Assembly (NCBI RefSeq): GCF_016808095.1
Contig: NC_068980.1
Location: 6,296,501 to 6,360,500 of the forward strand
Direction of reading: 5' to 3'
Source: Vigna angularis
Lineage: Eukaryota; Streptophyta; Magnoliopsida; Fabales; Fabaceae
Length of the DNA stretch: 64,000 bases
Shown: positions 7,676 to 45,081 of the stretch, piece after piece
Numbering within the stretch: the stretch's first letter is position 1
Layout of the letters: each line of letters begins with the position of its first letter
Made by a program: the position numbers and the translations under genes
The notes under the pieces: model-generated
What the model was told of the DNA's origin: nothing
Database searches by the model: none
What the model saw: only the letters and a program-made list of their open reading frames with translations

Positions 7676-8029
7676 TGCTCAAAAACTAAAAACTATTATC
7701 TTCTAATCACCATCAAACTGAAAAAGAACCTAGAGTAATCAAAACTAACCCCACAGAAAAACTATTATACAACTTTTTTTATAGAAAAACTAAAGGAAGG
7801 AAAAAGGGAAGGGAAAGAAAAACCCAAACCATGCTTCGCGCTCCTCTTCGAGTGACTTCTGTCAACACCCAATTTCGTCCGGATTGACAAATAAATTGCA
7901 TTTTCCCATAAAAATAGAAAAAATAAAAATAAAAAAATAAAATAAAATAATAAAATAATAAAATAAAAAAAAAAGAAAAGAAAAAAAGAAAAAAGAGCGT
8001 TCGGCCTTTTGCTGTAGCTTTACGAGCGT

Positions 8030-8950
8030 TCGTCCTCCACCATGCTCTTCTCATCTCCATATCTAGTTGACGTTCGGCATTTCTTTAGCTTCAAGCGTTC
8101 CTGTGTTTGGCCGCTCGTTCTCAACCGTTCGGTCATCCTCAAGCGGACCGTTTGACCGTTCGGTCATTTAGGACGTTCGTCCTCACCAATTCACAGCCTC
8201 AACCGTTCGGTCATCCTGGGCCTCAAGTGTTAAAGCGTTTGTTTTAATGAACGTTCGCTCTTTGTCTGGACGTTCGGTTTTAGACATGTGAGTTTTAACG
8301 TTCGATCTTGGTTCTGAATCAATAAATTGTGTGCGCTCGGTTTTCTCATGTTTACTTCGTGAGCGTTCGGTCTTGTTTTGTTGGAACGTTCGGTCGTGAT
8401 GTGTTTGAACGTCCCGTTGAACGTTCGGTCATTTTATGTGTTAGTGAGCGTTCGGTCATGTGTTAGTGAGCGTTCGGTCATGTGTTAGTGAGCGTTCGGT
8501 CATTTGTTAGGGAGCGTTCGGTTATATTGTTTGGTCTTCCTTTGAGCGTTCGGTCTCAATTCCGTTTGTCTTCAGCGTTCGTTCGTCCAGCGTTCGGCCC
8601 AGCAGCCAACAGCATTCGTCAAAGAGAGTGGTGAGGCGTTCGTCCTAATCACTCTCGTCTTCTAACGCTCGTCCAAATCACTCCTGTACTTTCTACCGTT
8701 CGTCCTAATCTCTCCTTTTCTACCGTTCGTCCATCATTCCATTCTTCTACCGTTCGTCCCTCTTTCAATTCTTCTGCCGTTCGTCCTAATCATTCCTGCC
8801 GCTCGTTGAGGTCACTATTTTCTGCCTTTCTACCGCTCGTCCGCCTCATTTCATTCTTCTACCGCTCGTCCTAAATCACTCCCGTCTTCTAACGCTCGTC
8901 CAGCTCACTCCTCCCCTTTCTACCGCTCGTTCATAATTTCCCTCGCTCGT
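8030..8950 (+). repeat. CGTTCG-motif-rich zone in the LTR, with a 22-bp tandem array
   Basis: GCGTTCGGTC, CCGTTCGTCC and close variants recur dozens of times. Between 8434 and 8522 they form a regular tandem array of a unit containing GTGTTAGTGAGCGTTCGGTC, with about four copies. The same zone is in the right LTR (about 21970-22880). Being near the LTR start it probably belongs to U3, where such clusters can be factor-binding sites. That role is inference. Confidence 0.7.
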
Positions 8951-9912
8951 CCTGATCACCCGTGGGCCCAATAATGATTTCCAGAATCTTCCACCGGTCC
9001 ATTTCTACCTTCCCCACTTCACCAACCCTCCAATTATTCCAACAATCTTCCACCAACCCAATAATTGCCTCATCCTCCAATCACAGCTACCGACACTCTC
9101 ACCTCTTACTGTGCTATAGCCTACATAATTCACACGAGAGAGGGAGGAGGGAGACACACACAGCTACTAGGGAGACACCTGGGAGGAGGATACCGTGGCC
9201 GAACTCCAAACTCTGGAGGAGCCTGCATCTCCAACAGCCCCTCACCCGTAACCATACCAACCACACTCCCCTCACTTCCAAGCTTCTCTGAAAATTCAAT
9301 TCTCTACACCTCACACTACTCGCTTGTAAACTCTAGACAGACCTTTATCTCCAACTCCCTTCAACCATCACCCCTTTTCATCTCCAACACCCATCATCTT
9401 CACTGCAAAAAGGGGGGATCCATCTCTTCATCCCCACGCCTCACGGCCAATACCTTTCTTCACCATCTTCCACCCATCAACCACAGCCAAACACCCATCA
9501 TCCATATTCACCCACTGTGCAGCCACCTTATACACGGTCAACATCAATCTTCAATCAATACCCTCCCTCACACTATTCTCACTCACTCAACAAGAAGATC
9601 TCTTGAGAAACCATACGCCTCTGCCTTCATCACCAGCCAGTCCCACGTCTCTGTTCCAATCACGCTTATTTCCAACTACCATCGCGTACAAGGAAGTCAT
9701 GCTTCCTCATTGAATCCCCTCACCGTGTTTCCCAACCGAACTGGATCTTCATCACTCGTAGCGTCCCTTGCCGGTGTGGACATCACGCTCCTGCCAAGCC
9801 CATCTTCTTCTCCGTATAACAATCCCTTCAAACCCCCACATTTTCCTCTACCGAGACCGTGCCTCAGCCCTTTCTCCGAAGTCACCAAACCACCATCATC
9901 CACCTCATTACC

Positions 9913-10053
9913 TTCGCCTCGCGCCATCCACGCGTTACACTCTGTGAGGTCTGCGAGCGGGCGCCCGCGCATGTCACCTGCAAAGCCGACGCCGCCTCGC
10001 TCTGCCTCGCCTACTGCCGCGACATCCGTCCGCCAACCAGCATCGCCGGCGGC
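9913..10053 (+). pseudogene. Captured B-box zinc-finger fragment (CONSTANS-like/BBX) in the 5' LTR
   Basis: The plus-strand frame encodes [20 protein letters not shown] followed by [10 protein letters not shown]. This is the junction of the two B-boxes and the first half of B-box 2 of CONSTANS-like proteins: the paired cysteines of CEVC, then cysteine after eight residues, then the K-A-D-A-A-x-L-C signature. After that the zinc pattern breaks down: the next cysteine is displaced by one residue and the expected D-I-H-x-x-N reads RDIRPPT. There is no B-box 1, middle region or CCT domain. The segment is far more GC-rich than the rest of the LTR, as expected for foreign coding DNA. In the CONSTANS family this domain mediates protein contacts. 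Function here is unlikely or unknown. Confidence 0.8.
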
Positions 10054-10640
10054 AAGAACGTGAGGAGGGAGCTGGATGTCAACGTTGGAATCAGAGAAAC
10101 TGTGGCGTGGGTGTGCCCTAGATCCAGACTTCATCAAGGAAATAAAATGCTTCTAAAAAACAATCCCTTGATCCTAAGTTGCTGGGCCGGTTTCGTTTTT
10201 TTGAAAATAAAAATAATATATAAACAAAAAAATATTTTTCTCCTTCACGCAACTCCCGCTTATATCTTTGCACCCTTTTTTCATTTGGGCTTAAGTTTTT
10301 CTGCCAGCAGAATACAAAATAAAGAAGGAATTGGACCTGACACACATTTCGGGATGCACCTCCATTTTTCATATTTACACTCTTGGCAGATATAAAGTTG
10401 AAGAAAAAGTTTTGGGCCCAAACCAAAGAGCTTCAATTCTTTCCACACCTCTGGTTTTTATCTCTACACTTTTTGCTTATTGGTTGTTTTGTTTTATGCT
10501 CTTTAATGTTTTTCTTTCTTTTACTTGATTGTTTTATACGTGGCTATGTGTGATAACTTCACTCTTGTATATTGCATCTTATATTTTGTTGGATTTGTTC
10601 ATAAAAAATATAAACAAAAAAATAAAATAAAACAAACAAA

Positions 10641-11200
10641 GTCGTGTGAGTGCTCGTGCGATCGTACGCATCAGCCTAGTACTCATTACGCAAACAATAA
10701 GCAAAAAGCCGTATGAGTACTCGTGCGATCATACGCATCAGCCTAGTGCTCATTACGCAAAATTAAAAGATAAATTAAAAATCAAAAAAATATGTTTTAA
10801 AGGTCAAGCACATGTGTGATCGCTCGCATCGTCCTTGTGCTAGACATCTTTCCTTTTTATAAAAATATTAAGCACATGTGTGATCGCACGCATCGTCCTT
10901 GTGCTGAAAACATTGTCTTTTATAAAAACACCAAAAAAATATAAAATTTTCAAAAACTAAAAACATTCACATTTTCAAACAACAATCAATCTTCCTGGCC
11001 AGAACTACGTGATCCTTGATTCTCCATCAAAAGTGGAGATACGTAGGAGCAAGGTCAGTCCTTGTCAGGTTCATTTCCCCAAAAATCCAAAATCAATTTC
11101 TTCAAGCAAATTTCTCAAACAATTTCAGAACGAACTACGGAACCCTGATTTCTCATTCTGAATGAGAATACGTAGGAGCAAGGTCAATCCTTGTCGGGCC
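10641..11200 (+). repeat. Paired short repeats in the 3' half of the 5' LTR
   Basis: Three different sequences each occur twice: one with GTGCGATCGTACGCATCAGC (about 10641-10760), one with CACATGTGTGATCGC and GCATCGTCCTTGTGCT (about 10808-10905), and one with ATACGTAGGAGCAAGGTCA (about 11001-11070 and 11132-11200). The same pairs occur in the right LTR. They lie downstream of the candidate TATA, so they are probably transcribed as R/U5. Confidence 0.7.
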
Positions 11201-11510
11201 CAAAAACCTAAAAAATATTGTTTGTTTCTTTCGAGTTTTATTTCAAGGGAAAGTTAAACATTTTGAAAAGCACATCCATATTCGCATATTTAATTAAAGG
11301 TACTGCCTTAAGGCAGGCGTTGTAGGGTGCTAATACCTTCCCTACACGTAACCGACTCCCGAACCAAGAATCTGGTTCTAATAGACCATGCCTTATCATT
11401 TTATGGTTTTTCCGTAGTTTTCCAGAATAAACTATGGTGGCGACTCCAAATCTCTTTTCAAAACCCGTTTTTTCGGATCGTCGTCCCGTCGCGATTCCGG
11501 TTGCGACAGA

Positions 11511-11528
11511 TGGCGACTCCACTGGGGA
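11511..11528 (+). other. Primer binding site, tRNA-Arg(ACG)
   Basis: Two bases after the LTR end is TGGCGACTCCACTGGGGA. It is complementary to the 3' end of plant tRNA-Arg(ACG) including CCA, with one mismatch (A where G is expected). Use of tRNA-Arg is typical of Ogre elements. Confidence 0.8.
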
Positions 11529-14282: not shown

Positions 14283-14827
14283 TCAACGAAAAAATTCCCG
14301 AGCTGGTTGTGGTGGTCTAAGGGAGAGCTCCGTCGAAGGAGCTCTGGTTCGGAAGGTGAGAAGCATGGGTGGAGCGATTTGTCGTTCGTCTCTGTCGTCG
14401 TCGATCATGATCGGAACGGGGAACAGGTCCAGCAGCCTCGGCGCCCTCATAATTACCCAGTCGTACTCTTTCAAAAAAAAAAAAAAAAACTTTGTGTCAG
14501 TAATAGAGACGGAAGAGTAAAATTCAAAAAATAGAGGTGATCAGGTTTCTTACCATACATGTATAGCGGCAGTTGTGAAAAGAGAGTGCCAGTGGGGTCT
14601 ATCTCCGCTTGCCAGCGCCTGACCCGATTGCCATGGTTGTTGAACCAGCAGTGCACGTTATATTCGCTGGCATCTCCGAAAGCCCTTAGTCGAGACGTAA
14701 TCTCGACGACTTGGGCTCTGCTGGGATGTGTGACCCCGTAATTATAGATGTTGGTCATCATCTTGATCTGATCGTCAGTAGGACGCCACCGCGGACTGGT
14801 GTACCTCTCTATTTCCATCTCACTCAT
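14283..14827 (-). CDS. WUSCHEL-related homeobox (WOX-like) gene carried antisense in the retrotransposon
   Basis: There are two coding exons on the minus strand: 14554-14827 and 14283-14467. The 86-nt intron starts GTAAGAAACC and ends after a long T-run at GAAAG. The junction rebuilds a codon in frame, giving about 152 residues. Residues 9-74 form a WOX-type homeodomain: SPRWRPTDDQIK (helix 1), ITSRLRAFG (helix 2) and NVHCWFNNHGNRVRRW (helix 3). WOX factors usually have NVFYWFQNHKAR there, so the recognition helix is divergent, though W61, F62 and N64 remain. Residues 103-110, LLDLFPVP, resemble the WUS-box, the repressor motif of the WUS clade. No stops or frameshifts. Start choice: first methionine after the leader-intron acceptor. 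Known WOX proteins are nuclear DNA-binding regulators of stem cells. Whether this one is made is unknown. Confidence 0.8.
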
Positions 14828-14845: not shown

Positions 14846-15701
14846 CTAAAGCGTAAAAATAAAAAAAATATAAAATAAAAAGAACAAAAACAAAACAAAA
14901 CAAACCATAAATAACAAAAATATTATGTTCATAGTCTAATGTCTTCTTCCATTGTTTTTCTTTTAAGCTAATTTTGTTCTTTGTATTGGGTCTTTCGAGT
15001 CTTATTGTCCAATTTGTGATCTGTTTCATGGTCCTCGCAAAGGTTCCTAAACGGATCTATGTCCATATTGTCCATGTCCGGTTCATACAAATAAAATTCT
15101 CTTTTTAAGTTTTCTGTTTTTATGGGGTACGTGGCGTTGTTCTACCCGATTGTCTCTGCCATACCTTCAATCGAAGGGAGATTAACGTCTGGTTTCCAGC
15201 CTATATACCCCTTAGTTTAAGACAGTGTGTTCTTGTTTTTTTTAAGTTAAGAAAGAAAAATAGAAGGTGAAGAGGAAAGCGGATAAAAGCTAAAAATAAA
15301 GAAGCGAGCAGGAAATAAGGAAAAGAAAGCGAAAAGTAAAAAAAAAGTAAAGTGCATGAACGTAAAGAGCGAGAAGAATAAAAGACAAAGTAATGAAAAG
15401 TGCGAGTAAAGAGGTGAAGATGTAAAATAAGAGCATAACGAAAAGAGAAAGCAGAAAAGAAAAACAGAAAGGGAAGAGGGGAAGGAAAGCAGGGAAATCG
15501 AAAAGGGAACAAGAAAGAACAGCAAGAACAGAAAGCGTAAAGAAAAAAAAAACAACAGAGAAAGGGAAGAGGGAAAGAAAGGCAGAGAAAGCGAAAAGGG
15601 GAAAGAAGAACAGAAAGTTGAAAGGGGAGGAAGAAAGGAAAAAGCATGAAGGAAAGAAAGAAGGAAAAAGGACTTACCCGGAAGAAGAAGGGCTTACTTA
15701 C
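14846..15701 (-). other. Leader intron of the antisense WOX-like gene (predicted)
   Basis: On the minus strand a strong donor TTCTGTAAGTAAG (GT at 15701-15700) and a T-rich acceptor TTTTTACGCTTTAG (AG at 14847-14846) bound an 856-nt intron. A second donor-like GGGTAAGTCC is nearby (about 15672-15680). The exon upstream (about 15702-15820) contains no ATG, so the first start codon is the homeodomain one, 18 nt into the next exon. Predicted from sequence only. Confidence 0.6.
15240..15690 (+). repeat. 450-bp purine tract (A/G almost only)
   Basis: The plus strand is made almost wholly of A and G in varied GAAAG/AGAAA blocks. On the minus strand this is a long pyrimidine tract within the predicted leader intron. 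The apparent F/S/L-rich frames on the minus strand here are composition artefacts. Confidence 0.75.
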
Positions 15702-15845: not shown

Positions 15846-15853
15846 ATTTTATA
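15846..15853 (-). promoter_or_regulatory. TATA box for the antisense gene
   Basis: The minus strand reads GGCTATAAAATGGG, a strong plant TATA box. About 30-60 nt downstream lies a pyrimidine-rich patch (CTCGCTCTCTCTCTATCC), a usual initiator context. With the leader donor at 15701 this gives a coherent promoter-exon-intron order for leftward transcription. Confidence 0.6.
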
Positions 15854-20180: not shown

Positions 20181-20364
20181 TAAATAAATAAAATAAAATA
20201 AAAATAGACACTCATTTCTATCTCAAAAAAAAATCAAAAAAAAATTCAACATCTCAAAATTTCAACAAATTCAAAAATTTCAAATTCAAAACAATCAAAC
20301 GATTTTACTTTCTATTTCGGCCCTCTACAAGGCAATGGTTAAATCCAACAATCAAACTCAAATC

Positions 20365-21640
20365 ATTCACTTCCATAGGGTTACGACACCCTCCACGAGG
20401 TTTGGACACCTCATTCACTTCCACTGGGTTACGACACCCTCCACGAGGTTATGACACCTCATTCACTTCCATAGGGTTGGTACACCCTCCACGAGGTTTC
20501 TACACCTCATCAACTTCATCCATAGGGTTGGTACACCCTCCACGAGGTTTGTACACCTCATTCACTTTCATAGGGTTGGTACACCCTCCACGAGGTTTCT
20601 ACACCTCATCAATTTCATCCATAGGGTTGGTACACCCTCCACGAGGTTTGTACACCTCATTCACTTCCATAGGGTTGGTACACCCTCCACGAGGTTTCTA
20701 CACCTCATCAACTTCATCCATAGGGTTGGTACACCCTCCACGAGGTTTGTACACCTCATTCACTTTCAAAGGGTTGGTACACCCTCCACGAGGTTTCTAC
20801 ACCTCATCAACTTCATCCATAGGGTTGGTACACCCTCCACGAGGTTTGTACACCTCATTCACTTCCATAGGGTTGGTACACCCTCCACGAGGTTTCTACA
20901 CCTCATCAACTTCATCCATAGGGTTGGTACACCCTCCACGAGGTTTGTACACCTCATTCACTTCCATAGGGTTGGGGTTGGTACACCCTCCACGAGGTTT
21001 GTACACCTCATTCACTTTCATAGGGTTGGTACACCCTCCACGAGGTTTCTACACCTCATCAACTTCATCCATAGGGTTGGTACACCCTCCACGAGGTTTG
21101 TACACCTCATTCACTTCCATAGGGTTGGTACACCCTCCACGAGGTTTCTACACCTCATCAACTTCATCCATAGGGTTGGTACACCCTCCACGAGGTTTGT
21201 AAACCTCATTCACTTCCATAGGGTTGGTACACCCTCCACGAGGTTTCTACACCTCATCAACTTCATCCATAGGGTTGGTACACCCTCCACGAGGTTTGTA
21301 TACCTCATTCACTTCCATAGGGTTGGTACACCCTCCACGAGGTTTCTACACCTCACCCACTTCATCCATAGGGTTGGTACACCCTCCACGAGGTTATTAC
21401 ACCTCATTCACTTCCATAGGGTTGGTACACCCTCCACGAGGTTTCTACACCTCATCAACTTCATCCATAGGGTTGGTACACCCTCCACGAGGTTATTACA
21501 CCTCATTCACTTCCATAGGGTTGGTACACCCTCCACGAGGTTTCTACACCTCATCAACTTCATCCATAGGGTTGGTACACCCTCCACGAGGTTGCTACAC
21601 CTCATTTCACTTCATCCATAGGGTTGGTATACCCTCTACA
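20365..21640 (+). repeat. Minisatellite, alternating 51- and 48-bp units (99-bp higher-order repeat)
   Basis: About 25 monomers share GGTACACCCTCCACGAGG. They alternate between a 51-bp form (TTTCTACACCTCATCAACTT) and a 48-bp form (TTTGTACACCTCATTCACTT), so the true period is 99 bp. The left edge has older GACACC variants. Both lengths are multiples of three, so a frame stays open from 20402 to 21202 and from 21224 to 21670, reading GLVHPPRG repeats, broken by a TAA near 21199. GAGGT...ACCTC in each unit can form a small hairpin. Tandem repeats just before the 3' LTR are a known property of Tat/Ogre elements and a source of satellites. Confidence 0.93.
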
Positions 21641-21794: not shown

Positions 21795-21807
21795 AAAGAG
21801 GGGCATC
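21795..21807 (+). other. Polypurine tract
   Basis: AAAGAGGGGCATC lies directly before the TG of the right LTR, in the position where plus-strand synthesis is primed. Confidence 0.65.
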
Positions 21808-24800
21808 TGTCAACATCCAATTTCGTCCGGATTGACAAATAAATTGCATTTTCCCATAAAAATAAAAAATAAAATAAAATAATAAAATAAAAAAAAAATA
21901 AAAAAAAAAAAAAGAAAAAAGAGCGTTCGGCCTTTTGCTGTAGCTTTACGAGCGTTCGTCCTCCACCATGCTCTTCTCATCTCCATATCTAGTTGACATT
22001 CGGCATTTCTTTAGCTTCAAGCGTTCCTGTGTTTGGCCGCTCGTTCTCAATCGTTCGGTCATCCTCAAGCGGACCGTTTGACCGTTCGGTCATTTAGGAC
22101 GTTCGTCCTCACCAATTCACAGCCTCAACCGTTCGGTCATCCTGGGCCTCAAGTGTTAAAGCGTTTGTTTTAATGAACGTTCGCTCTTTGTCTGGACGTT
22201 CAGTTTTAGACATGTGAGTTTTAACGTTCGATCTTGGTTCTGAATCAATAAATTGTGTGCGCTCGGTTTTCTCATGTTTACTTCGTGAGCGTTCGGTCTT
22301 GTTTTGTTGGAACGTTCGGTCGTGATGTGTTTGAACGTCCCGTTGAACGTTCGGTCATTTTATGTGTTAGTGAGCGTTCGGTCATGTGTTAGTGAGCGTT
22401 CGGTCATGTGTTAGTGAGTGTTCAGTCATTTGTTAGGGAGCGTTCGGTTATATTGTTTGGTCTTCCTTTGAGCGCTCGGTCTCAATTCCGTTTGTCTTCA
22501 GCGTTCGTTCGTCCAGCGTTTGGCCCAGCAGCCAACAACATTCGTCAAAGAGAGTGGTGAGGCGTTCGTCCTAATCACTCCCGTCTTCTAACGCTCGTCC
22601 AAATCACTCCTGTACTTTCTACCGTTCGTCCTAATCTCTCCTTTTCTACCGTTCGTCCATCATTCCATTCTTCTACCGTTCGTCCCTCTTTCAATTCTTC
22701 TGTCGTTCGTCCTAATCATTCCCGCCGCTCGTTGAGGTCACTATTTTCTGCCTTTCTACCGCTCGTCCGCCTCATTTCATTCTTCTACCGCTCGTCCTAA
22801 ATCACTCCCGTCTTCTAACGCTCGTCCAGCTCACTCCTCCCCTTTCTACCGCTCGTTCATAATTTCCCTCGCTCGTCCTGATCACCCGTGGGCCCAATAA
22901 TGATTTCCAGAATCTTCCACCGGTCCATTTCTACCTTCCCCACTTCACCAACCCTCCAATTATTCCAACAATCTTCCACCAACCCAATAATTGCCTCATC
23001 CTCCAATCACAGCTACCGACACTCTCACCTCTTACTGTGCTAAAGCCTACATAATTCACACGAGAGAGGGAGGAGGGAGACACACACAGCTACTAGGGAG
23101 ACACCTGGGAGGAGGATACCGTGGCCGAACTCCAAACTCTGGAGGAGCCTACATCTCCAACAGCCCCTCACCCGTAACCATACCAACCACACTCCCCTCA
23201 CTTCCAAGCTTCTCTGAAAATTCAATTCTCTACACCTCACACTACTCGCTTGTAAACTCTAGACAGACCTTTATCTCCAACTCCCTTCAACCATCACCCC
23301 TTTTCATCTCCAACACCCATCATCTTCACTGCAAAAAGGGGGGATCCATCTCTTCATCCCCACGCCTCACGGCCAATACCTTTCTTCACCATCTTCCACC
23401 CATCAACCACAGCCAAACACCCATCATCCATATTCACCCACTGCGCAGCCACCTTATACACGGTCAACATCAATCTTCAATCAATACCCTCCCTCACACT
23501 ATTCTCACTCACTCAACAAGAAGATCTCTTGAGAAACCATACGCCTCTGCCTTCATCACCAGCCAGTCCCACGTCTCTGTTCCAATCACGCTTATTTCCA
23601 ACTACCATCGCGTACAAGGAAGTCATGCTTCCTCATTGAATCCCCTCACCGTGTTTCCCAACCGAACTGGATCTTCATCACCCGTAGCGTCCCTTGCCGG
23701 TGTGGACATCACGCTCCTGCCAAGCCCATCTTCTTCTCCGTATAACAATCCCTTCAAACCCCCACATTTTCCTCTACCGAGACCGTGCCTCAGCCATTTC
23801 TCCGAAGTCACCAAACCACCATCATCCACCTCATTACCTTCGCCTCGCGCCATCCACGCGTTACACTCTGTGAGGTCTGCGAGCGGGCGCCCGCGCATGT
23901 CACCTGCAAAGCCGACGCCGCCTCGCTCTGCCTCGCCTACTGCCGCGACATCCGTCCGCCAACCAGCATCGCCGGCGGCAAGAACGTGAGGAGGGAGCTA
24001 GATGTCAACGTTGGAATCAGAGAAACTGTGGCGTGGGTGTGCCCTAGATCCAGACTTCATCAAGGAAATAAAATGCTTCTAAAAAACAATCCCTTGATCC
24101 TAAGTTGCTGGGCCGGTTTCGTTTTTTTGAAAATAAAAATAATATATAAACAAAAAAATATTTTTCTCCTTCACGCAACTCCCGCTTATATCTTTGCACC
24201 CTTTTTTCATTTGGGCTTAAGTTTTTCTGCCAGCAGAATACAAAATAAAGAAGGAATTGGACCTGACACACATTTCGGGATGCACCTCCATTTTTCATAT
24301 TTACACTCTTGGCAGATATAAAGTTGAAGAAAAAGTTTTGGGCCCAAACCAAAGAGCTTCAATTCTTTCCACACCTCTGGTTTTTATCTCTACACTTTTT
24401 GCTTATTGGTTGTTTTGTTTTATGCTCTTTAATGTTTTTCTTTCTTTTACTTGATTGTTTTATACGTGGCTATGTGTGATAACTTCACTCTTGTATATTG
24501 CATCTTATATTTTGTTGGATTTGTTCATAAAAAATATAAACAAAAAAATAAAATAAAACAAACAAAGCCGTGTGAGTGCTTGTGCGATCGTACGCATCAG
24601 TCTAGTACTCATTACGCAAACAATAAGCAAAAAGCCGTATGAGTACTCGTGCGATCATACGCATCAGCCTAGTGCTCATTACGCAAAATTAAAAGATAAA
24701 TTAAAAATCAAAAAAATATGTTTTAAAGGTCAAGCACATGTGTGATCGCTCGCATCGTCCTTGTGCTAGACATCTTTCCTTTTTATAAAAATATTAAGCA

Positions 24801-25434
24801 CATGTGTGATCGCACGCATCGTCCTTGTGCTGAAAACATTGTCTTTTATAAAAACACCAAAAAAATATAAAATTTTCAAAAACTAAAAACATTCACATTT
24901 TCAAACAACAATCAATCTTCCTGGCCAGAACTACGTGATCCTTGATTCTCCATCAAAAGTGGAGATACGTAGGAGCAAGGTCAGTCCTTGTCAGGTTCAT
25001 TTCCCCAAAAATCCAAAATCAATTTCTTCAAGCAAATTTCTCAAACAATTTCAGAACGAACTACGGAACCCTGATTTCTCATTCTGAATGAGAATACGTA
25101 GGAGCAAGGTCAATCCTTGCCGGGCCCAAAAACCTAAAAAATATTGTTTGTTTCTTTCGAGTTTTATTTCAAGGGAAAGTTAAACATTTTGAAAACCACA
25201 TCCATATTCGCATATTTAATTAAAGGTACTGCCTTAAGGCAGGCGTTGTAGGGTGCTAATACCTTCCCTACACGTAACCAACTCCCGAACCAAGAATCTG
25301 GTTCTAATAGACCATGCCTTATCATTTTATGGTTTTTCCGTAGTTTTCCAGAATAAACTATGGTGGCGACTCCAAATCTCTTTTCAAAACCCGTTTTTTC
25401 GGATCGTCGTCCCGTCGCGATTCCGGTTGCGACA
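21808..25434 (+). repeat. 3' LTR of the Ogre-like element (3627 bp)
   Basis: Nearly identical to the left LTR over its whole length, with the same ends and the same internal repeats, B-box piece and candidate TATA. The A-rich stretch near 21866-21920 is shorter than its left counterpart. The flanking ACTTC at 25435-25439 matches the left flank. Confidence 0.9.
23839..23979 (+). pseudogene. Captured B-box fragment in the 3' LTR
   Basis: Same B-box sequence as in the left LTR ([19 protein letters not shown]). Presence in both LTRs shows it was part of the LTR before this insertion, because both LTRs are copied from one template at integration. Confidence 0.8.
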
Positions 25435-25439
25435 ACTTC

Positions 25440-34649: not shown

Positions 34650-36890
34650 TTTAAAAATAAGAGAGGGAAAGTCTGAGACTGAAATAAAAGGAAAAGACGA
34701 AAATTAGAGTAAAATTAAAAATTTAGATTATTTTAATTAAATATGAAATAGTAAAAGGTAATATTAATAATTTCATTTTATATTTTTATATTATTTATAA
34801 ATCTTTTATTGTTATAGCTACATATTGTGTTTGTAAAATTTTTATAATTAATTATATTTTTAAGTTTCTAAACTAAATCTTGGTGAAATTGGAATTGATA
34901 GCCTCCTCAAACTTTTATACATTTTTTATCTTTAAGTTTAAAAAATAATAGATGTACTCATTTTAATATAATGTGATATTAATTCTTTTTTATTAAATGA
35001 TATTTTATATCTGTTATTTAATTTGAATGGTTTTAAAGGATATAAATAATTCAAACATTTGAAACTAATTTTTTTTAACAATTAAATCAAAATGATTATA
35101 TATTTTTTTAAAATTTAATTTTAAAATATATGAAAATTTTGAAATAGAACGAATTTTTAGATGGTATAAGTTTAAAAACTAAAAATATATTTAGTTTTTT
35201 TTCTCTTGTTATTTTAGAGGTTATGTTTAATTAAAAATATTTATAATTAAATTGTATAAATTAATTATTTTATACTTTTTATAATTTAATACTATTTTTA
35301 TTTTAATGATTCTCATAATATATTTTTATTTTTCATTATGGTAAAAAGTTGATGTATATATGTGTTACTAGTAATTATAATGAAAAATATACCTTTTAAT
35401 AAAATATAAGATAAGAATATTTATTTATTATACATGAGATGTCAATAAGTAAGGATGGTTGTAAATTTTATTATTCCATCTAAAATCCAAAATAAAAGTT
35501 AATGGATTTGTCCTCCACCTAAATACACCTTTCTACTAATTCATATATAAAACGTGATGTTTTTAATTATTCAATAATTAAAAGAATATATATTTTTTAT
35601 CCAATATTAAAATGGAGAAATAAATTATAATTATATAATATTAATTGAGATGATGTCAATCTGACTCACTACAAGTTCGGGTCATGTTAGATTTAAAAAA
35701 AAATGTAATTTTTTGACACGGGTCAATTTTCAACCCGACCTACTTAGAACTCTGTTCACTCGGGTTGAACCCGTGAGCCAGATTGACTCACCAACCCATC
35801 TAATTTAATTTATTTATTTATTATTTTATGTTTCAATATATATTAATTAACATTTTTTATTGTATTGTAGATGAGGATAAAGAAGATGTTTCGAGAGAGA
35901 AAAATATTATGGATTTATCCATCTAAGACTCTAATCTTATAAACGGATAAATGACACAAAAATTATTAGAAATTTATTTATTCGCTTTTTGTGTTTGTTT
36001 TTGGATTTCATTTAGATTGTATGGTACGTTTTTTGTTTTTGAATAATGAATAATTTTAGAGTAAAATTTATTTACATTTGAATTACAAGAAAAAATGTAA
36101 TTTTTTGAATTTAAAAAAAAAAACTTGTAATTAAATGAGTTGACCCATTTAACCCACTAATCTGTGGTGGCCAGATTGAAATTGAAATTTTTCGACTTAC
36201 TAATAAATGAGCTAGGTTAGATTGGTTCACTAAGTGACCAACCCATACTAGATCGAACCAGCCGGACTGAATTACCCATTTTGATTTTGACAACACTAAT
36301 TTAGACTTATAATTATATAAATATTAATTAAGAGTGTAACTCTCTTTTAACCAATGCATAAAAACATGAAAAAAAAATGTAACTTTTTTTTAACTTGCAA
36401 TCTCGTGAAGAAAGTGTTAAATTTTATATATAATTACTTATCTATGTTAAAACAATTAAATAGTTAATATTAAAATATTAAATAAAATATAATTAACTTA
36501 TTTACATTTTTATAATTTATTTTAACTTGAATATTTCTTTATAGTTTTTATTATTCTTCCCTTAAAATGACATAACTAATGGAAATAAACCATTTGGATT
36601 ATGTTTTCCTTCTTTTCAATGAGTTGAACACAAATATTTTTTACCTAAACTTATAGCCTTTAATTTGAAGCATAAAATGAATGTAAATGTTTAAAAAAAA
36701 AAAGTAATTGGAATTAGGATTAGGTTAGCATATGGTTGACAATGATTTAAAGAAGGGTAGATTCTTAATACAAGAGAGAGAGGTTAAAGGGTGATAGAAA
36801 TTATTTCTGTGTGATATTGTATCTTTTAACATAAATCGTAATTTCAAATTGTTAACATGAGAAACTGGTTTGGTTGAGATGTTAAAGGGG
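34650..36890. other. AT-rich intergenic, possible hAT-like MITE at about 35650-36295
   Basis: No gene. Within 35650-36295 are many CGGGTC, AACCCA and GACTCACCAACCC motifs, ending TTTTGACAACACTAA. Repeats with such TAGTGTTGTCAAAA ends are often non-autonomous hAT elements. The left end is unclear and I found no target duplication. Confidence 0.35.
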
Positions 36891-37006
36891 AAGACTTGGA
36901 TCTTCTGCACAAAAGTACGCGGTGGGTTCGCATTACTTGCTGTTTTCAACTTTTAGCTCAAATCATCTGCATAATATTATATAAAGTTCATGGTGTATTT
37001 GTTAAG

Positions 37007-37951
37007 ATGATGGCTAATAGTCGCGAACTCGTGCCTCTCTACAGTACACTTCTCGACGCTTGCTCTTCAGCGAAGCACTTGAAGAATCTAAAACAAATTC
37101 ATGCGATGACCATCAAATTAGGCATTTCAAGCAATGACTTCATTAGAAGCAAGCTTGTGTCTTCCTACGCTTGTTGTGCTCAATTGCACGAAGCCAATAT
37201 CATCTTCTCCTTCACCATTCGCCAACCCACTTTTCTTTTCAACTCTCTCATCAGAGCACATTCATCTCTCGGCTTTTTCGCTCGATCCCTTTCCATCTTT
37301 CACGACATGGTGCTTGCTCACAAGCCCTTTGATCGTCACACGTTACCTGTGGTGCTGAAATCTTGCGCTGGTTTATCGGCTTTGCGGCTTGGGCAACAGG
37401 TCCATGGGGCTGTTTTGATTAATGGGTTTGGCTTGGACTTGGCAAATTCTAATGCTTTGGTAAACATGTATGCCAAGTGCGGGGATTTGGTTAGTGCGCG
37501 CAAGGTGTTTGATAGAATGTGGCAAAGGAACGAGATTACGTTTTCAACCATGATGAAGGGTTATGGAATGCATGGGAAGTGTGAGGAGGTGTTCGAACTG
37601 TTTGATAAATTGGTGGACGCAGGGGAGAGGCCTGATGGTGTGACTTTTACTACGGTTTTGAGTGCGTGTAGTCATGGTGGGTTAATAGACAAGGGGAGAG
37701 AATATTTTGAGATGATGGAGGTAAGGTTTGGAATGAAACCTGAGCTGCACCATTATACGTGCATGGTGGATATGTTGGGGAGGGTTGGTCAGGTTGAGGA
37801 AGCAGAGAAGTTAATTTGGAGAATGGAGGTTAAGCCTGATCAGGTTTTGTGGCGTGCCTTGCTGGCAGCTTGTAAAACTCATGGGAAGGTTGAGGTGGCT
37901 GAGAGAGTAGCAGAGAGGGTTTATGGAAAGGAACTTAGTATTGCATCTTAA
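37007..37951 (+). CDS. Pentatricopeptide repeat protein, PLS class, short
   Basis: An uninterrupted frame of 314 residues. PLS-type repeats are seen through motifs such as ALVNMYAKCGDLVSARKVFD, TTVLSACSHGGLIDKG, YTCMVDMLGRVGQVEEAEKL and LWRALLAACKTHGKVEVAE. The frame extends upstream to 36896, but the paralogous pseudogene conserves the sequence best from MMAN, so I chose 37007. It ends soon after the start of an E-like region. Most relatives continue with full E, E+ or DYW domains, so the C-terminus seems shortened or the gene is degenerate. PLS PPR proteins usually act in RNA editing in plastids or mitochondria. No clear transit peptide is seen. Target unknown. It converges on the next gene, with stops about 280 bp apart. 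Confidence 0.75.
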   Translation: MMANSRELVPLYSTLLDACSSAKHLKNLKQIHAMTIKLGISSNDFIRSKLVSSYACCAQLHEANIIFSFTIRQPTFLFNSLIRAHSSLGFFARSLSIFHDMVLAHKPFDRHTLPVVLKSCAGLSALRLGQQVHGAVLINGFGLDLANSNALVNMYAKCGDLVSARKVFDRMWQRNEITFSTMMKGYGMHGKCEEVFELFDKLVDAGERPDGVTFTTVLSACSHGGLIDKGREYFEMMEVRFGMKPELHHYTCMVDMLGRVGQVEEAEKLIWRMEVKPDQVLWRALLAACKTHGKVEVAERVAERVYGKELSIAS

Positions 37952-38233
37952 TTAAAAAAATTTGTACGTGGATTTTGTTCATCAGAGAATGCATGCAGCT
38001 TAAGGATAAGCATTTTCCAGTCTTGCATGGCCATACTTTAGATATTGTGTACATTCTTTCATATATATTCAATATTTTTTTATGGCCTTTAATATGAGAC
38101 GCAATAACCAGTGTCTTCCAAATTTTGTCCCAGTTTATAAACAGTTTGGACTGGTATATGTAGTTACAAAAGAGAGAGCACATTTGTATAATCGGTTACT
38201 TTCTTGAACTGAACTAATAGGTCTGTTACAAAA

Positions 38234-39778
38234 TTAATCGTCCTCGTAACATTCTTTTCCAGAGAAATCTGGAACATAGCCACATAATTGCAGCTCAAAA
38301 GACAAAAGTTTCAATGCTGCGTAAATATGATCTTTCTCTTCATGAGATTTATCTCCAGCCACAAATTTGTGAATGCTGGAGTCAATCTCAATAGAACTAA
38401 ACCCTGGTATCTTTTGTATCCCACGTTCCTTCATTCTCCTCCTAACCTTGCTCGCGCCATCCCACTTTCCAACTGCTGCATATATGTTAGAAAGAAGCAC
38501 ATAATTGGAATCTTTCCCTGGGTCCAATTCAATAAGATATTTCATGACATTTTCAGCCAACCCAATGTTCCCCTGAGTCCTACAAGCTGCGAGCAGTGAC
38601 CCCAAAACAACTTCATTTGGCCTCATGGGCATATTCTTCAAAACATTCCATGCCTCCTCTAACCTCCCAGCTCTACTATAGAGATCAACTAAACAACCAT
38701 AATGCTCGATTCTAGGCGAAATCCTACGAACTCTCCTCATATTTTCAAAGATTTTGAGTCCCTCGTTAATTAAGCCTGCATGACTACACGCCGTTAGAGC
38801 ACCTGTGTAGCTGACTCCGTCTGGTTTGAACCCTTCCTCCTGCATTGAATTGAAGTGATTCAGAGCCTCGTCCGCAAAACCATTAACTGCAAAACCCACA
38901 ATGATTGAGTTCCACGTCACTAAAGTTCTATTGGGCATTCTATCAAACACCTGACGAGCTAACTCTATGCATCCACATCGAGAATACATGTCTATCAAAG
39001 AGTTGGAAACTCTAACATTGTTCCTGAAAGCTTGTGTCATCACAAGTCGGTGCACCCACAAGCCAAGACCGAGTGTGCCCAAGTTCGCACACGCCGCAAT
39101 AACAGCAATAATAGTCACATAATCATATTCCACCCCAGCTAGCTGCATTTCTCGAAAGCACTCCAGAGCTTCCTCGTGAAAATCCTTCTTCACAAAACCA
39201 CCAATTAGGGCAGTCCAAGAGACAGCATTCTTCACAGGCAATTGATCAAACAATTGGAGGGCATCTTCAATTCTCCCATTCCTCATATACCCATTAATCA
39301 TCGTGTTCCAAGACACCAAATTTCTGACACCCATTTGATTGAATGCCAACCTTGCAAAATCTACACGATCACATTTACCGTACATGTCAATCAGCGCAGT
39401 CCCAACCATGACATCGTTCACGTGCAAGCCCAATTTGCACGCATGTGCATGTACGGCAGTTCCAAAGGAAATACTACTCTGCGAAGGATGATGAGCGCAA
39501 ACAGAGAGGAGTGTGATGAGAGTGATATGATTAGGTTCAATGTTAGCTTCTCTCATTCGCACAAACTCGGAGGCAGCTTTAACGAAATGTCCACCTTTGC
39601 AATACTGAGCTATGGAAGATGTCCATGCTACAATGGGGTCAGCGTATTTTGTAGTGTGTTTTAGGGACAGGCTTTGATTGGTGTTGAAGTGTGTTTGATT
39701 TGGAACTGAAATTGGTGAAGATGGTTTTGGAGGGTGGGGAAGCTGAGTTGGCTTAATCGCGCACGCAGGAAGGATCAT
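38234..39778 (-). CDS. CLB19: CLB19-like PPR RNA-editing factor (PLS-E class)
   Basis: A single exon of 514 residues. The first 45 residues are rich in P, S and T, as in a plastid transit peptide. PPR repeats follow, for example VGTALIDMYGKCDRVDFARL, NTMINGYMRNGRIEDALQLF, ALIGGFVKKDFHEEALECF and NSLIDMYSRCGCIELARQVF. The C-terminus has the E/E+ region (SNYVLLSNIYAAVGKWDGAS, KIPGFSSIEID) and no DYW domain. Overall order and wording match Arabidopsis CLB19 (At1g05750), which is needed for editing of plastid rpoA and clpP transcripts. I rely on remembered similarity, so orthology should be treated as likely, not proven. Lacking DYW, it would need a partner deaminase. Intact. Confidence 0.85.
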   Translation of the reverse strand: MILPACAIKPTQLPHPPKPSSPISVPNQTHFNTNQSLSLKHTTKYADPIVAWTSSIAQYCKGGHFVKAASEFVRMREANIEPNHITLITLLSVCAHHPSQSSISFGTAVHAHACKLGLHVNDVMVGTALIDMYGKCDRVDFARLAFNQMGVRNLVSWNTMINGYMRNGRIEDALQLFDQLPVKNAVSWTALIGGFVKKDFHEEALECFREMQLAGVEYDYVTIIAVIAACANLGTLGLGLWVHRLVMTQAFRNNVRVSNSLIDMYSRCGCIELARQVFDRMPNRTLVTWNSIIVGFAVNGFADEALNHFNSMQEEGFKPDGVSYTGALTACSHAGLINEGLKIFENMRRVRRISPRIEHYGCLVDLYSRAGRLEEAWNVLKNMPMRPNEVVLGSLLAACRTQGNIGLAENVMKYLIELDPGKDSNYVLLSNIYAAVGKWDGASKVRRRMKERGIQKIPGFSSIEIDSSIHKFVAGDKSHEEKDHIYAALKLLSFELQLCGYVPDFSGKECYEDD

Positions 39779-39789
39779 TCTTCTTGAGG

Positions 39790-41630
39790 ATCATAAATTT
39801 TTTGAACAGTGCTTCTTCCAGCATATAAGTAGTAGTTTTAGCTGTTGCATAATTTCACATTTGTGTGGAATGTTAACATTTGGAGTGTCCAAGAAAACTG
39901 AGGCACATGGGTTGACTCGCCCTTTTTTGAGCTAAAAGACTGAATTCTTGTTGAGCTGCACCCACCACACTAAATAGGTAAGGTGGATTGAGTTACTCTC
40001 ATTTATTGTTGTTAAAAAGAAAGTTGTTGGATGGAGATAAGGAACTTAAAATTTGTATACAAATTACTTTTTCTATAATCTAAAATTAAATTATGCCTAA
40101 AACGTGTAGTTTTCACTGTTTTTATTTTAATTTTAGAAAGAGAATCAAGTAGTTGCACTAGAATGTTGTGTCATTACATTATTTATGTGAAGAAAACACT
40201 TTCATATAGTGTGTTGTGCATTATATTATCAAATGACAGAATACATGAAGTGGATAACAAAAATACATAATTAACAAAGCTTCAGACACGAGTGTGCATT
40301 GAAAGAGAAAATGTATCAAAAGTTTGACAAAAGAAATTACGGATACTTCCAAAGAAACAAGCTCATCCAACTTAGTATTCAAACTTAAATCACCTCTGTA
40401 GTTGCTTTTTAAAACTAAAAACATACTAAAAATGTAACATTAACGTAGATAGTCCAAAAATTTCTAAGAATTCTGAACGTTGATGGATTTGGCAAGAATC
40501 AAATGTCATCAAAGAGCAAGAGTTTAAGTATTAGTATGGCAAATGAGTAAAGCTCAAATCATTAAAGAGCAGTTGCAGTTGAGTTCCTTAAAATCAAAAA
40601 TAGTTTTATCTATCAAACAACTTTATCAATGTGATTCCACGACTGAAGGAGACTGCTGTAACATTAAAGGAGAAAATTACCAGTAGAAAAACCAGGAAAT
40701 TATCTTATCACATTAGTTAAGCAAGTTTTGATAAGAAAAACGTACGACTCTATTTTCTTGTGGCAAGTAATAGCATAACAGAGACTGGCCTCTATAATGA
40801 AGTTTATTAATTTCAAAACTTAAAAGAAGATTGCATAGCCAATGGAATAAACAAGGACTTTGAACACAAACCACAGTAAAGCAAGCCTATTATGAGGCTG
40901 AGAGAAACATGGAAGTCGTGCTAGCCAGGTAGCTAAGAGATGCATTGCAAAAGTAGCAGCTGCTAGCTACAATAAAGACAGACAAGAAAATAAGAATTCT
41001 CAAGCATAGAACCTTCTATGAATTCTTACGTTATAGTTTGTTTTCACCATATTGTACATTTTAGAATTCAAGTAATTGAAAGTCACAGTTGAAACTCAGT
41101 CTCTCCTCAGTATGAACACAACAAATTTCAAGTGACAAATCTGACAAATTCCTAGCCTTTTGTTATCTATCAAAAGGCTTCACCCCTCTTTGGATTGATA
41201 TAACATAGGGAAAGATTCAATGAGAAGAAAAGGCACAAAAGAGGCTACCAAGACTTCATGTGCCTAAAAATGTGTCACCATATTTAATTTATCAATGCAG
41301 GTGGAAAATATCATGGATAAATTGTTCTGCTAAGCATTTCAATGATAACACCTCCCATAATAAGATGGATGGGATAACAACATAGATGAATGTGACTTGT
41401 TACACAGAATCATTACTATCAAGTAGAAATTGGTGTTCTTGTATATAAGACAAAATAAAGAGAAAACATGTATAACTTATCTACATCTTCCTATGGTATT
41501 TTAATGTCCAAAAACAGAACAAAATCCAGAGACATGATTTTTGCCTCTTGGCTGAAGAAACAGACGTGGTGAATCCAAGTGAATTTGAATAAGGATACAA
41601 CAACAGGATCCATAAATTGCACTAAATATG
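39790..41630. other. Intergenic region and probable 3' UTR of the receptor kinase gene
   Basis: No coding signal. The last few hundred bases before 41639 would be the 3' untranslated region of the leftward-transcribed kinase gene. The first about 100 bp is the 5' flank of the PPR gene. Confidence 0.5.
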
Positions 41631-41638
41631 CCTAAAGA

Positions 41639-44600
41639 TCATCTTGCATCAGCAGAAGTAAAAGAGTCTGCAAACCCAGTAGGCCTGGCTGCAATACTGC
41701 TTCTGCTGTTGTCAAGACTAGAAGCATAGCTGAACTCTTTGCTTTCTGCTTCCTTCCAAATCTGCAACATCTGAGGAAGTGGTCTTGTGTAGTCGATGCC
41801 AGAGTAGCAGTCTAATTCATCATCAACTGGTTGCCATTTTTCCACTATTGCTGATAGGACATTGACTGCATGACCCATATCTGGCCTATGATGTGCTTCC
41901 CTTGCAGTGCAATGTCCAGCAAGTTCAGCTACAATAGTTATGCTGTCAAAAGTTTCTTCAGATGCTTCCACAACTGGATCAATGGCAGCCATAAGCTTCT
42001 CCTTGCTTGATTTAATTCGCCAAAACCATTCAGCCAAGTACCGGCTCTCCTCTGGTCGGCTCTCATCAAGTGCCACAAGTCCAGTCAGAAGTTCCATCAA
42101 AACCACACCGTAGCTGAACACATCAACTTTTGTGGTGATTTTCCCCATCACTGAAACACATCGATACATAGTATAAAAAGCTAGGCAGGCACATCAAACA
42201 CACTGATATGATAAAACGTCACACATTGCAATGGTATGACCAACTGTTAGATGAGTGACACAAGTACCGCATTGCTTACAAATTTGAAACATTATGACAT
42301 ATAATTAGACATCATTCCTTGTTAACTTTTACTTTTTCAAATACAGACAGAAAGAGAGACCTCTTGCACACTACTAAGATGTTTTCATCTAAGAACAATG
42401 TAACTGAATATAAATTAACATACAGAGAGGGTATAATGATTCCATTTGGCAGTTATGCTAAATTTCTACATATACATCATGGCCAGAAGAGGTGATTTTA
42501 AGCAAGTCATACCTGCATATTCAGGGGCAAGGTATCCAAATGTCCCAGCAAGCTTGGTAACTACAGACTTCTCACTGTCTGGGGCATGCTTCACCAAACC
42601 AAAATCTGAAACTTTAGCTCGGAAATCATCACCCAATAAGATATTAGAAGACTTAAGATCTCGATGAATAAAAGTCTGACGGGCAAGACTGTGAAGGTAT
42701 TCTATCCCTCTGGCAACATCTAGTGCTATTGCAAGCCTCTTTGACCAAGACAAAGGCTCCAGGTTCAAGCTTTTCCAATGAAAAAGATGCTGGCTTAGAG
42801 CTCCAAGAGACATATATTCATAAACCAAAAGTCTTTCATTGCCTTCAATGGAATACCCCAACAAGGATACCAGATGGCGGTGCCGTACCTTGGAAAGAAC
42901 AGCTATTTCTGCTTGAAACTCCTCTATTGCCTTACTGGTAATAACCCCATGCTCCATTCTCTTCACAGCTATTTTTGTCCCATCTTCAAGTTCCCCCCTG
43001 TAAACAGTCCCAAACCCTCCACGACCTAGTTCATTTTCTGAAGCAAATTCATTGGTAACCTTGCGTAGTACTTGTATAGAGATGACAAGGTTTCCATCCT
43101 CAATCATGTGAGAGTTTTGAGTTTCACCACTGATGTTACTCAGAGAACTTGTACCAGTCTTTGTAGACAAACTTCCAGTGGCGGTCGAAACTGCAATTTT
43201 AACTATGTTGTCTGGATCAGATGGATTGCGAGGGTGGACCACAATGGAACTTGGAGCATCTAAGGAGGCTTTTTTCTTCTTCCTACAACATAGCAAGAAA
43301 TAAACAACCAAAAGTGCTACAAGAGTAAACAATACAACTCCAGCCACAATTGCTGCTGTTTTGAATCTTTTCAATTCATTAGGCTTGGATTGATTTGCTC
43401 TTGAACTCTGATCTGGAATAGGTGGCTTATGAGAGGATGGAGGCTGTGATGGATCTTGTGGTGAAGGTGGGCTGTTAATAGGCATAGGACTGGGACTTCC
43501 TCCAGTTTTATTCAGAAGAAGGGGATTACCCGTGATAATAATCTTCAAATCATCATGAAAATTTGGAAATGGAGGCTCAAGATTGTTATTACTTAAATCC
43601 AACAACTCCAAAGATGTTAATTTGGTGAAATTAGTAGGAACAGAGCCGGTTATGTTGTTTCCTGAAAGCCTAATTTGACGGAGTGAATCTAACTTAGCAA
43701 GTGAGGGACTTAGTGTACCATTTAGCTTGTGTCTAGGTAGATTGATAATAGATATCTCTGAGTTGGAATTGCAGCTCAATCCAAACCATGACCCTGTGCT
43801 GCGTGTGCAAGGTTCATCACCAGACCAATCAGAAACGAGAAATGAAGGGTAATTCATCTTATCTAGAAAATCCAGCAAAATAGTAACTTGAGGGCCACAT
43901 TCAAGTCCAGGCTCATTTTGACAAAATAAATTGTAATCATAAGAAACATTGGCAGCCTTAAATTTTGGTATTGGACCCATTAGCATGTTGTTATTTAACA
44001 CAAGGATATCAAGATCCATAAGTGCCAGAGACTCTGGAATCAAGCCAACAAGTTGATTGCTATTGAGATTGAGTTCCTGCAAGGAAGTTAGATTTCCAAT
44101 ATTCTGAGGAATTGACCCAGTTAATCGGTTTCCATGTAGCCAAACCTGTCTAAGGAAAGGCATTGAAGCAATAACATCAATAGGACCACTCAACCCACCA
44201 CCTTCTTGATTATTCAACCACAAAACCTGGATTGAAGACTGTGCAAAAGTTGCAGGTATGGCACCAGACAGCTTGTTACCTGAAAGCCTCAGATTTGTGA
44301 GAGATGGCAATGTGCCGAGAAAATCCGGTAACGGTCCAACCAAGTTACATTGCACCAGAGAAAGGTTGGTTAACTGTACTGATTTTTCCAAATCCATGGG
44401 AAACAACCATCCACTACTCATATTCAGTGGATTTTCTTCCAAAGACAAGACTCTAAGGCTGCTAAGCCCAATAAAGAAATCAGATGGAATTGAATCAAAT
44501 TTATTGTAATCCAAGAAAGCAAATTCCAATTTGGATAATCCACTAAAAGAGGGCAACACCCCACTGAGGTTGTTGCGTTGGAGACCCAAATTGTAGAGTT

Positions 44601-44883
44601 CTGAGAGTTGGTTAAAGTTTTGAGGCAATGACCCTCTAAGACCAAGATTCTTTGCCTGAATCTGGTTGACTCTGTCTCCAGAACAGTACACGAAAGGCCA
44701 TAAAGGAGGACCACAGGGATCATCTCCGTCCTCCGGCCACTTCAAAAGCTCAGGATTCTCCAACCCTTTTCTGAAATCATTCAAAACTTTGACATCATTT
44801 GGGTTTGTAGCACCAAAACTCACTGTGGCTATCAGACAAAAACAAAACAAGACGAAGACTTGTTCTATCTGAACACCTTCCAT
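41639..44883 (-). CDS. TMK-family leucine-rich-repeat receptor kinase
   Basis: Two coding exons, 42513-44883 and 41639-42150, join G|TG in frame to give 960 residues. Residues 1-24 form a signal peptide. Two blocks of leucine-rich repeats (about 70-305 and 375-450) are separated by a non-repeat island with cysteines (about 308-372), the hallmark of TMK proteins. A P/S-rich linker leads to the membrane segment (about 509-532) and a basic stop (CCRKKKK). Kinase: GRGGFG at 620-625, lysine 641 in AVKRM, HRDLKSSN from 740, DFG 760-762, then PEYAVMGKITTK. All catalytic residues are present. Hence an active kinase at the plasma membrane. TMKs act in auxin-related growth and signalling. C-terminus ends GFADSFTSADAR. 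I chose the ATG at 44883 because it follows the leader-intron acceptor. Which TMK paralogue is not resolved. Confidence 0.92.
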
Positions 44884-44890
44884 GGTTAGC

Positions 44891-45081
44891 CTAGTAAAAC
44901 AGAAACAAAAAACAAAAGAGAGAATCAATATACGAACTTTCCCAGTAAAATCAGAACCCCATTATACCAGAGGCCCAAATGAGAGACACTAGCCACAAGA
45001 CTTAGAAAAATGACTAATGACAAGCTTAGAACTAGAACATGAGTGTGAATGTGAGAGTGCCTGCTTGGTAGTTACTCTTAC
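44891..45081 (-). other. Leader intron of the TMK gene (predicted)
   Basis: On the minus strand CCTATAG|GTAAGAGTAAC (donor at 45081) and TTTCTGTTTTACTAG (acceptor ending 44891) bound a 191-nt intron in the 5' untranslated region, ending eight bases before the ATG. Confidence 0.6.

Follow-up and report, generated by a model that had tools for sequence, protein, structure and literature searches.

An apparently non-autonomous long terminal repeat retrotransposon of Vigna angularis carries an antisense WUSCHEL-clade homeobox gene under purifying selection

The window analysed here (64,000 nucleotides; C11:6296501-6360500 of the 448-Mb Vigna angularis assembly G000) contains a long terminal repeat (LTR) retrotransposon that holds, on its minus strand, an intron-containing gene of the WUSCHEL-related homeobox (WOX) family. 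The window's copy has the features by which LTR retrotransposons are recognised: paired LTRs, a 5-bp target-site duplication (TSD), a primer-binding site (PBS)-like motif, and a polypurine-tract-like stretch (Table 1); the full LTR anatomy of its subfamily was read in this copy alone. The original prediction, made from the letters of the sequence, had described an antisense gene in a young LTR element devoid of gag and pol, and it holds on all these counts, for gag and pol as far as the ORFs described below go. The gene lies on the minus strand between LTRs bounded by ACTTC on either side, and across 3,627 aligned sites the LTR pair shows only 27 substitutions, together with 22 gap columns (Kimura two-parameter distance 0.0075). 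At the substitution rates used for LTR dating (1.3e-8 and 6.5e-9) this corresponds to an insertion age of 0.29-0.58 million years. No gag or pol domain, as an autonomous LTR retrotransposon would have, was found in the 20 stop-to-stop open reading frames (ORFs) of 80-388 amino acids scanned in the internal region (20 of the 43 ORFs of at least 60 amino acids), where a decayed remnant could remain; the Pfam matches among these ORFs are weak or fall in frames of a tandem array. The element therefore looks, and likely is, non-autonomous. A helper element with gag and pol did not come to light, no genome search for common LTR ends having been completed. Both LTRs also contain a 332-amino-acid open frame (9065-10063 and 22991-23989), the first of which matches nothing in Pfam at E 0.001, and an Rfam scan gave just two sub-threshold U6atac-like matches, both in the LTRs.

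The exon and intron boundaries first proposed for the gene proved exact, and the two exons join in frame to encode a protein of 152 amino acids. The product has a Pfam Homeodomain match above the curated cut-off (E=5e-6), and phmmer aligns it with WUSCHEL (WUS; 6ry3, E=5e-12) and STENOFOLIA (6wig, E=2e-11), so that the resemblance to WOX proteins is, as had been argued, not a matter of chance. Downstream of the homeodomain lies a WUS-box-like motif (consensus of the WUS-box TLxLFP): the window's LLDLFP has L for the first T, and proteins of a more distant subfamily (subfamily 3, see below; P0073 and P0074) read TLDLFP. Near the C-terminus follows an EAR-like motif of the WUS/WOX5 type (type assigned after the consulted part of PMC6305195), STELSLR, to be compared with LELRLSF and LDLRLSF in a WOX5-like pair of host genes. 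Contact residues are conserved: the equivalents of WUS residues R38, N90 and R94 are invariant across 26 aligned proteins. At the position of WUS Q89, 48 of the 71 element proteins with the motif have N and 23 have Q, N being the state in the window's subfamily (roles of these residues after PMC7203112). At the level of sequence, these features confirm the product as a WUS-clade WOX homeodomain protein, its placement in a subclade excepted, and a function in transcriptional repression is likely. Related proteins are already in databases under names such as Homeobox domain-containing or WUSCHEL-related homeobox; the best match stands at 97%, and all 58 matches of the first database search are from Vigna angularis.

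Table 1. Features of the retrotransposon and its antisense WOX gene, in positions of the window
Feature	Position	Strand	Remarks
TSD ACTTC, left copy	7855-7859		
5' LTR, TGTCAACA...GCGACA, 3,649 bp	7860-11508	+	
PBS-like site TGGCGACTCCACTGGGGA	11511-11528	+	not tRNA-Met type; just inside 5' LTR
Exon 2 of antisense WOX gene, 185 nt	14283-14467	-	ends TGA; 185 nt in 40/40 copies
EAR-like motif STELSLR, residues 136-142	14316-14336	-	kept across element subfamilies
WUS-box-like LLDLFP, residues 103-108	14418-14435	-	
Intron, 86 nt, GT-AG, phase 1	14468-14553	-	73-100 nt across copies
Exon 1 of antisense WOX gene, 274 nt	14554-14827	-	ATG at 14827; 274 nt in 39/40 copies
WUS-type homeodomain, residues 12-72	14612-14794	-	
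Predicted leader intron	14846-15677	-	donor GTAAGT at 15677 (39/40 copies); acceptor AG 14847-14846 (31/40)
Conserved non-coding block	14998-15345		directly upstream of WOX ATG; present in all three subfamilies
Candidate TATA box TATAAAA of antisense gene	15847-15853	-	TATAAA in 33/40 copies
Tandem array, 99-bp double unit, 12.8 copies	20363-21636	+	14 TCATTCA/TGAATGA sites
Polypurine-tract-like AAAGAGGGGCATC	21795-21807	+	precedes 3' LTR
3' LTR, 3,627 bp	21808-25434	+	
TSD ACTTC, right copy	25435-25439		

The window's gene was compared with 39 other long matches, the resulting 40 copies being the best by DNA identity (40 scored of 506 candidates) and not a random sample. In 39 of the 40 copies exon 1 has 274 nt and exon 2 has 185 nt; a GT-AG intron, which a processed (intronless) transduced gene would not possess, is present in every one, its length varying between 73 and 100 nt; and 33 copies are fully open. 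All 780 pairs together give a Nei-Gojobori ratio of non-synonymous to synonymous divergence (dN/dS) of 0.173. For the 473 distant pairs, in which the proportion of synonymous differences (pS) is 0.2 or more, the ratio is 0.155 (codon bootstrap 0.099-0.230), and the 64 closest pairs give 0.323. Divergence at synonymous sites is in line with that of the intron (pS 0.206, intron distance 0.199). Diversity at the first, second and third codon positions amounts to 0.041, 0.046 and 0.151, compared with 0.095, 0.096 and 0.103 for the same periods of a nearby non-coding stretch. In the copies examined the coding sequence is thus under purifying selection while the predicted intron drifts, and for this reason the element likely gains from the protein. 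The selection that had been suspected from the window is thereby upheld, the copies showing the reverse of the stops and neutral dN/dS that would speak against it. The weaker constraint in close pairs fits a neutral decay of copies after insertion, on top of selection acting on the lineages that replicate. A functional gene that was captured and amplified as a passive passenger, its low dN/dS being left over from the donor's history, would also give a raised ratio in close pairs and would suit the decay of the other subfamilies described below. Among the 40 copies, however, dN/dS falls as divergence grows, and the equal diversity that a passenger would show at the three codon positions is not seen; since the element flanks are common to all 40, these copies diverged as element copies. 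We accordingly give the passenger very little credence.

The same flanks bear on the idea of an ordinary host WOX paralogue with LTR elements inserted beside it, to which the naming of some copies as WUSCHEL-related homeobox in databases might lead. Against it, the gene sits between two LTRs that share one TSD, the 40 copies can be aligned over 1.6 kb upstream, seven copies that were fetched have approximately 2.2-3.6 kb around the gene in common, and eleven ordinary host WOX loci are distinct from the element copies; for the window this idea is refuted by the LTR anatomy, and in general we consider its chances negligible. Selection could also act at the level of the host, with element-borne WOX copies recruited as developmental regulators and the low dN/dS reflecting their use by the plant. 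The many open copies would agree with this, as would the WOX expansion published for V. reflexo-pilosa (PMC10357499, in the portion available). We nevertheless regard host recruitment as unlikely, the constraint being spread across dozens of dispersed copies instead of one fixed locus, and the window's copy being young by its LTR divergence.

Profile searches reached two further subfamilies, with identities of 45-49% and 32-37% to the window's protein or to P0001, whose members include proteins of V. umbellata (P0073, P0079) and V. radiata (P0067). The reference loci of both have a phase-1 intron between the homeodomain and the WUS-box, and the EAR-like motif is retained in the proteins of both. 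For subfamily 2 we sampled 20 loci, most of the first-listed ones without near-duplicates and without one row, some of them with stops; for subfamily 3 we took eight loci, all without a listed exon-1 stop, leaving out two neighbouring rows with such a stop as well as further subfamily-3 rows. Open copies number 11 of 20 in subfamily 2 and 3 of 8 in subfamily 3, the latter figure being if anything too high in view of how the loci were chosen; GT-AG is kept in 17 of 20 and 6 of 8, and dN/dS is 0.47 (0.36-0.65) and 0.67 (0.50-0.93), respectively. Several subfamily-2 loci occur at a spacing of approximately 23-31 kb (G000 C3:29995354, 30018250 and 30041043; C2:32949487, 32972733 and 33004153), and are possibly segmental duplications containing the element.

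In four 10-kb stretches of these other loci (L048, L049, L069 and L070) the WOX gene again lies antisense in LTR elements, here with LTRs of the form TGTAAGACCC...TTACA, and in the three for which the junction was displayed TGGTATCAGAGC, which we take to be a tRNA-Met primer site, directly follows the 5' LTR. The genes of these loci resemble the window's gene at the protein level. With different LTRs and a tRNA-Met-type PBS in these loci, the gene occurs as a module in two kinds of LTR backbone, and it has likely changed backbone, perhaps through exchange by template switching. The intron diversity of the gene in the 40 copies (0.199), compared with 0.095-0.103 in the element DNA upstream, is consistent with such an exchange. 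A non-Met PBS like that of the window is compatible with non-chromoviruses, as far as the relevant part of PMC6317226 goes; no reverse transcriptase, by which a Retand/Tat lineage could be assigned, was found in the ORFs scanned in the window's element.

The only DNA that BLASTN finds in common between the window's element and these four loci is a block upstream of the gene: its identity to the window is 81% over 363 columns in L048 and L049 and 77% over 107 in L070, L069 giving no block match at the same threshold, and weaker matches occur in other subfamily-3 loci. In the 40 copies the core of the block (15121-15220) has a mean pairwise identity of 0.95-0.98, above that of the coding exons. 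As candidate roles we consider a leader-intron enhancer, a promoter, or a packaging signal. The element-sense strand of the window's block folds with a z of -3.1 (opposite strand -1.05); a reading of the block as RNA structure was rejected, as 39 distinct sequences gave a covariance term of about 0, with one pair changed on both sides and several pairs broken, and our claim for the block is limited to sequence conservation. A block more conserved than the coding sequence and present in all three subfamilies is also what one might expect if the antisense RNA regulated the sense genomic RNA, the protein being secondary; roles of antisense RNA in such elements are discussed in sections of PMC7264820. 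We hold this to be quite improbable, since it cannot explain the codon-position periodicity or the constant exon lengths, and the fold of the block has no support from covariation.

For the expression of the gene we prefer, as a prediction, a promoter with its TATA box at 15853 followed by a leader intron over a second TATA-like site inside the conserved block (TATATA in 35 and TATATC in 5 of the 40 copies; TATATC in subfamily 2). An alternative GT, 24 nt upstream of the leader-intron donor, is kept in 25 of 40 copies, and the ATG of the WOX gene in all 40. Database protein P0014 (LOC128194728), which represents a gene model and no transcript, is extended at its N-terminus, and the extension joins where the leader-intron acceptor lies. 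Towards the 3' LTR, many units of the tandem array carry TGAATGA, which is near the TGAA direct repeat preferred by WUS: there are 14 such sites in the window's array, against 0.5 expected. Four other fetched stretches have 17 (L090), 1 (L092), 0 (L089) and 0 (L091), of which L089 and L091 show no match to the window's array region. The LTR and the remaining internal region are not enriched for the tested sites, apart from one TTAATTAA in the LTR. Because tandem copying multiplies whatever one unit contains, a role of the array in WUS binding is a lead only.

The origin of the gene was approached through eleven host loci of WUS-clade type, to which WOX numbers were assigned from general features of these proteins. 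In a homeodomain tree of 64 columns, a branch with 100/99 support splits 21 element rows from 14 host and asterid rows, which fits a single capture; subfamily 3 is nearest to the host rows, with subfamilies 2 and 1 beyond it (98/96). Given so few columns and the long branches, the donor is not placed by this tree. The host WOX5-like pair (L058 and L060) has a donor AAA/GTAAGT between homeodomain and WUS-box in phase 1, which is also the phase of the window's intron; among other host loci, good donors in phase 0 occur in L052 and L056, L053 offers phase-2 candidates alone, and L051 and L057 gave none. The WUS-box context in subfamily 3, PDRVTLDLFPI, can be set beside PDRVIETLQLFPI of L058, and both end in an LxLxL motif. 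On the strength of the phase-1 intron, the WUS-box context and the EAR-like C-terminus, we favour a WOX5-type donor. Homeodomain identity to the eleven host genes speaks against such a donor in the case of P0072, for which L051 (48%) comes just before WOX5 (47%), though for P0080 WOX5 comes first with 50%. Likeness to WUS/WOX5-type proteins has its bounds, since the window's product is only 152 amino acids long, is at most 44% identical in the homeodomain to the eleven host genes, has an altered helix 3 and is multicopy.

We consider it probable that a non-autonomous LTR family of Asian Vigna carries an antisense WUS-clade gene that was captured once from a WOX5-type host gene, is under purifying selection, and encodes a DNA-binding repressor aiding the propagation of the element. 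The host gene would have been taken up once and in antisense orientation, and its intron would have survived because splicing would not remove it from the sense genomic RNA. Driven by its own promoter and leader intron, the gene would yield a product that recruits TOPLESS-type corepressors and acts in the very cell whose active copy makes it. Two routes to an advantage can be envisaged: the protein may keep the cell stem-cell-like and thereby let new insertions enter the germ line, or it may bind the element's DNA and control its transcription; the former we place slightly ahead. Several points weigh against this reading. For selection to act on a product that works in trans, a non-autonomous element needs some cis-preference, which would arise if the product is tied to whichever copy is transcriptionally active in the cell. 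The other two subfamilies decay, as their open copies, GT-AG sites and dN/dS show. The replacement of WUS Q89 by N in the window's subfamily means that the specificity of DNA binding may have changed. The homeodomain tree does not group the element rows with WOX5, two WOX2-like host genes (44%) come nearest to the window's homeodomain in identity, and the host intron comparison is partial, with L050 and others outside it. Finally, splicing, promoter and repression are predictions.

Elsewhere in the window, a Ty1/copia reverse transcriptase fragment on the minus strand at 62271-63272 (RVT_2, E 2e-80) belongs to a separate element, and the pentatricopeptide-repeat ORFs and leucine-rich-repeat receptor-kinase-like ORF at 36878-39790 and 42469-44961 are probably ordinary host genes.

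With its complete LTRs, PBS, polypurine tract, TSD and long internal region in which no gag or pol was found, the element resembles the LARD type of large non-autonomous LTR elements, from which it departs in carrying a selected protein-coding gene. In having an antisense gene in the internal region of many copies, it resembles Grande (gene23), RIRE2, Retand (ORF4) and pvRetro13 (ORF2); for Grande gene23 an own promoter and a nuclear product are reported (PMC7264820, in excerpt). In the accessible passages of their 2020 review, Vicient and Casacuberta describe such antisense ORFs as having no clear similarity to other proteins and a mostly unknown origin, and argue that they are not transduced genes (PMC7264820). 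The window's product, in contrast, can be recognised as a WUS-clade homeodomain protein, and its gene has an intron. Retand/Tat elements have an antisense ORF with a Transposase_28 domain, and Vicient (2025) gives the TRP28 domain for 97% of clusters (PMC11963269, in part); no Transposase_28 match was found in the window's product, whose sole domain found is the Homeodomain, or in the 20 other ORFs scanned. By its title, PMC9289625 concerns Ty3/Gypsy elements of orchids that have acquired an m6A demethylase domain, likewise an extra host-type domain in a plant Ty3 family, although an RNA demethylase domain and not an antisense, intron-containing transcription factor. No WOX gene in a plant retrotransposon was found in the PMC literature searched, most subscription papers being outside its reach, and the main texts of PMC11963269, PMC7264820 and PMC13317346 contain none of the words homeobox, WUSCHEL and WOX.

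There are hints that the phenomenon has been overlooked. An expanded WOX family is reported for V. reflexo-pilosa in the text available of PMC10357499, and the corresponding parts of PMC11405225 list 381, 170 and 105 WOX genes, none collinear, in the roses Rosa chinensis, R. multiflora and R. rugosa, with 359 of 364 members of the expanded clades almost unexpressed during rooting; in the available text of that rose paper the string 'transpos' does not appear. The rose numbers may represent a second transposon-borne amplification of WOX genes. A bolder proposal, which we advance as doubtful, is that a selfish retrotransposon has turned a plant stem-cell master regulator into an accessory gene. 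In this view a WOX5-derived repressor, antisense and with its own promoter, would form a module able to pass from one LTR backbone to another, unrelated one; it would induce or extend stem-cell identity in those cells in which the element is active, allowing new insertions to enter the germ line, and similar captures may underlie the hundreds of rose WOX genes.

Antisense accessory genes of plant LTR retrotransposons have been known without an origin or a function (available part of PMC7264820), and here one has a recognisable origin in a family of stem-cell transcription factors; with its selection, its intron and its predicted activity, the role of such genes becomes directly testable. The finding raises two questions: what leads a non-autonomous element to maintain, under selection, a protein that acts in trans, and by what path a gene module passes from one retrotransposon lineage to another. 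It also serves as a warning that the 'WOX gene family expansions' of plant genome papers may in fact be transposon amplification.
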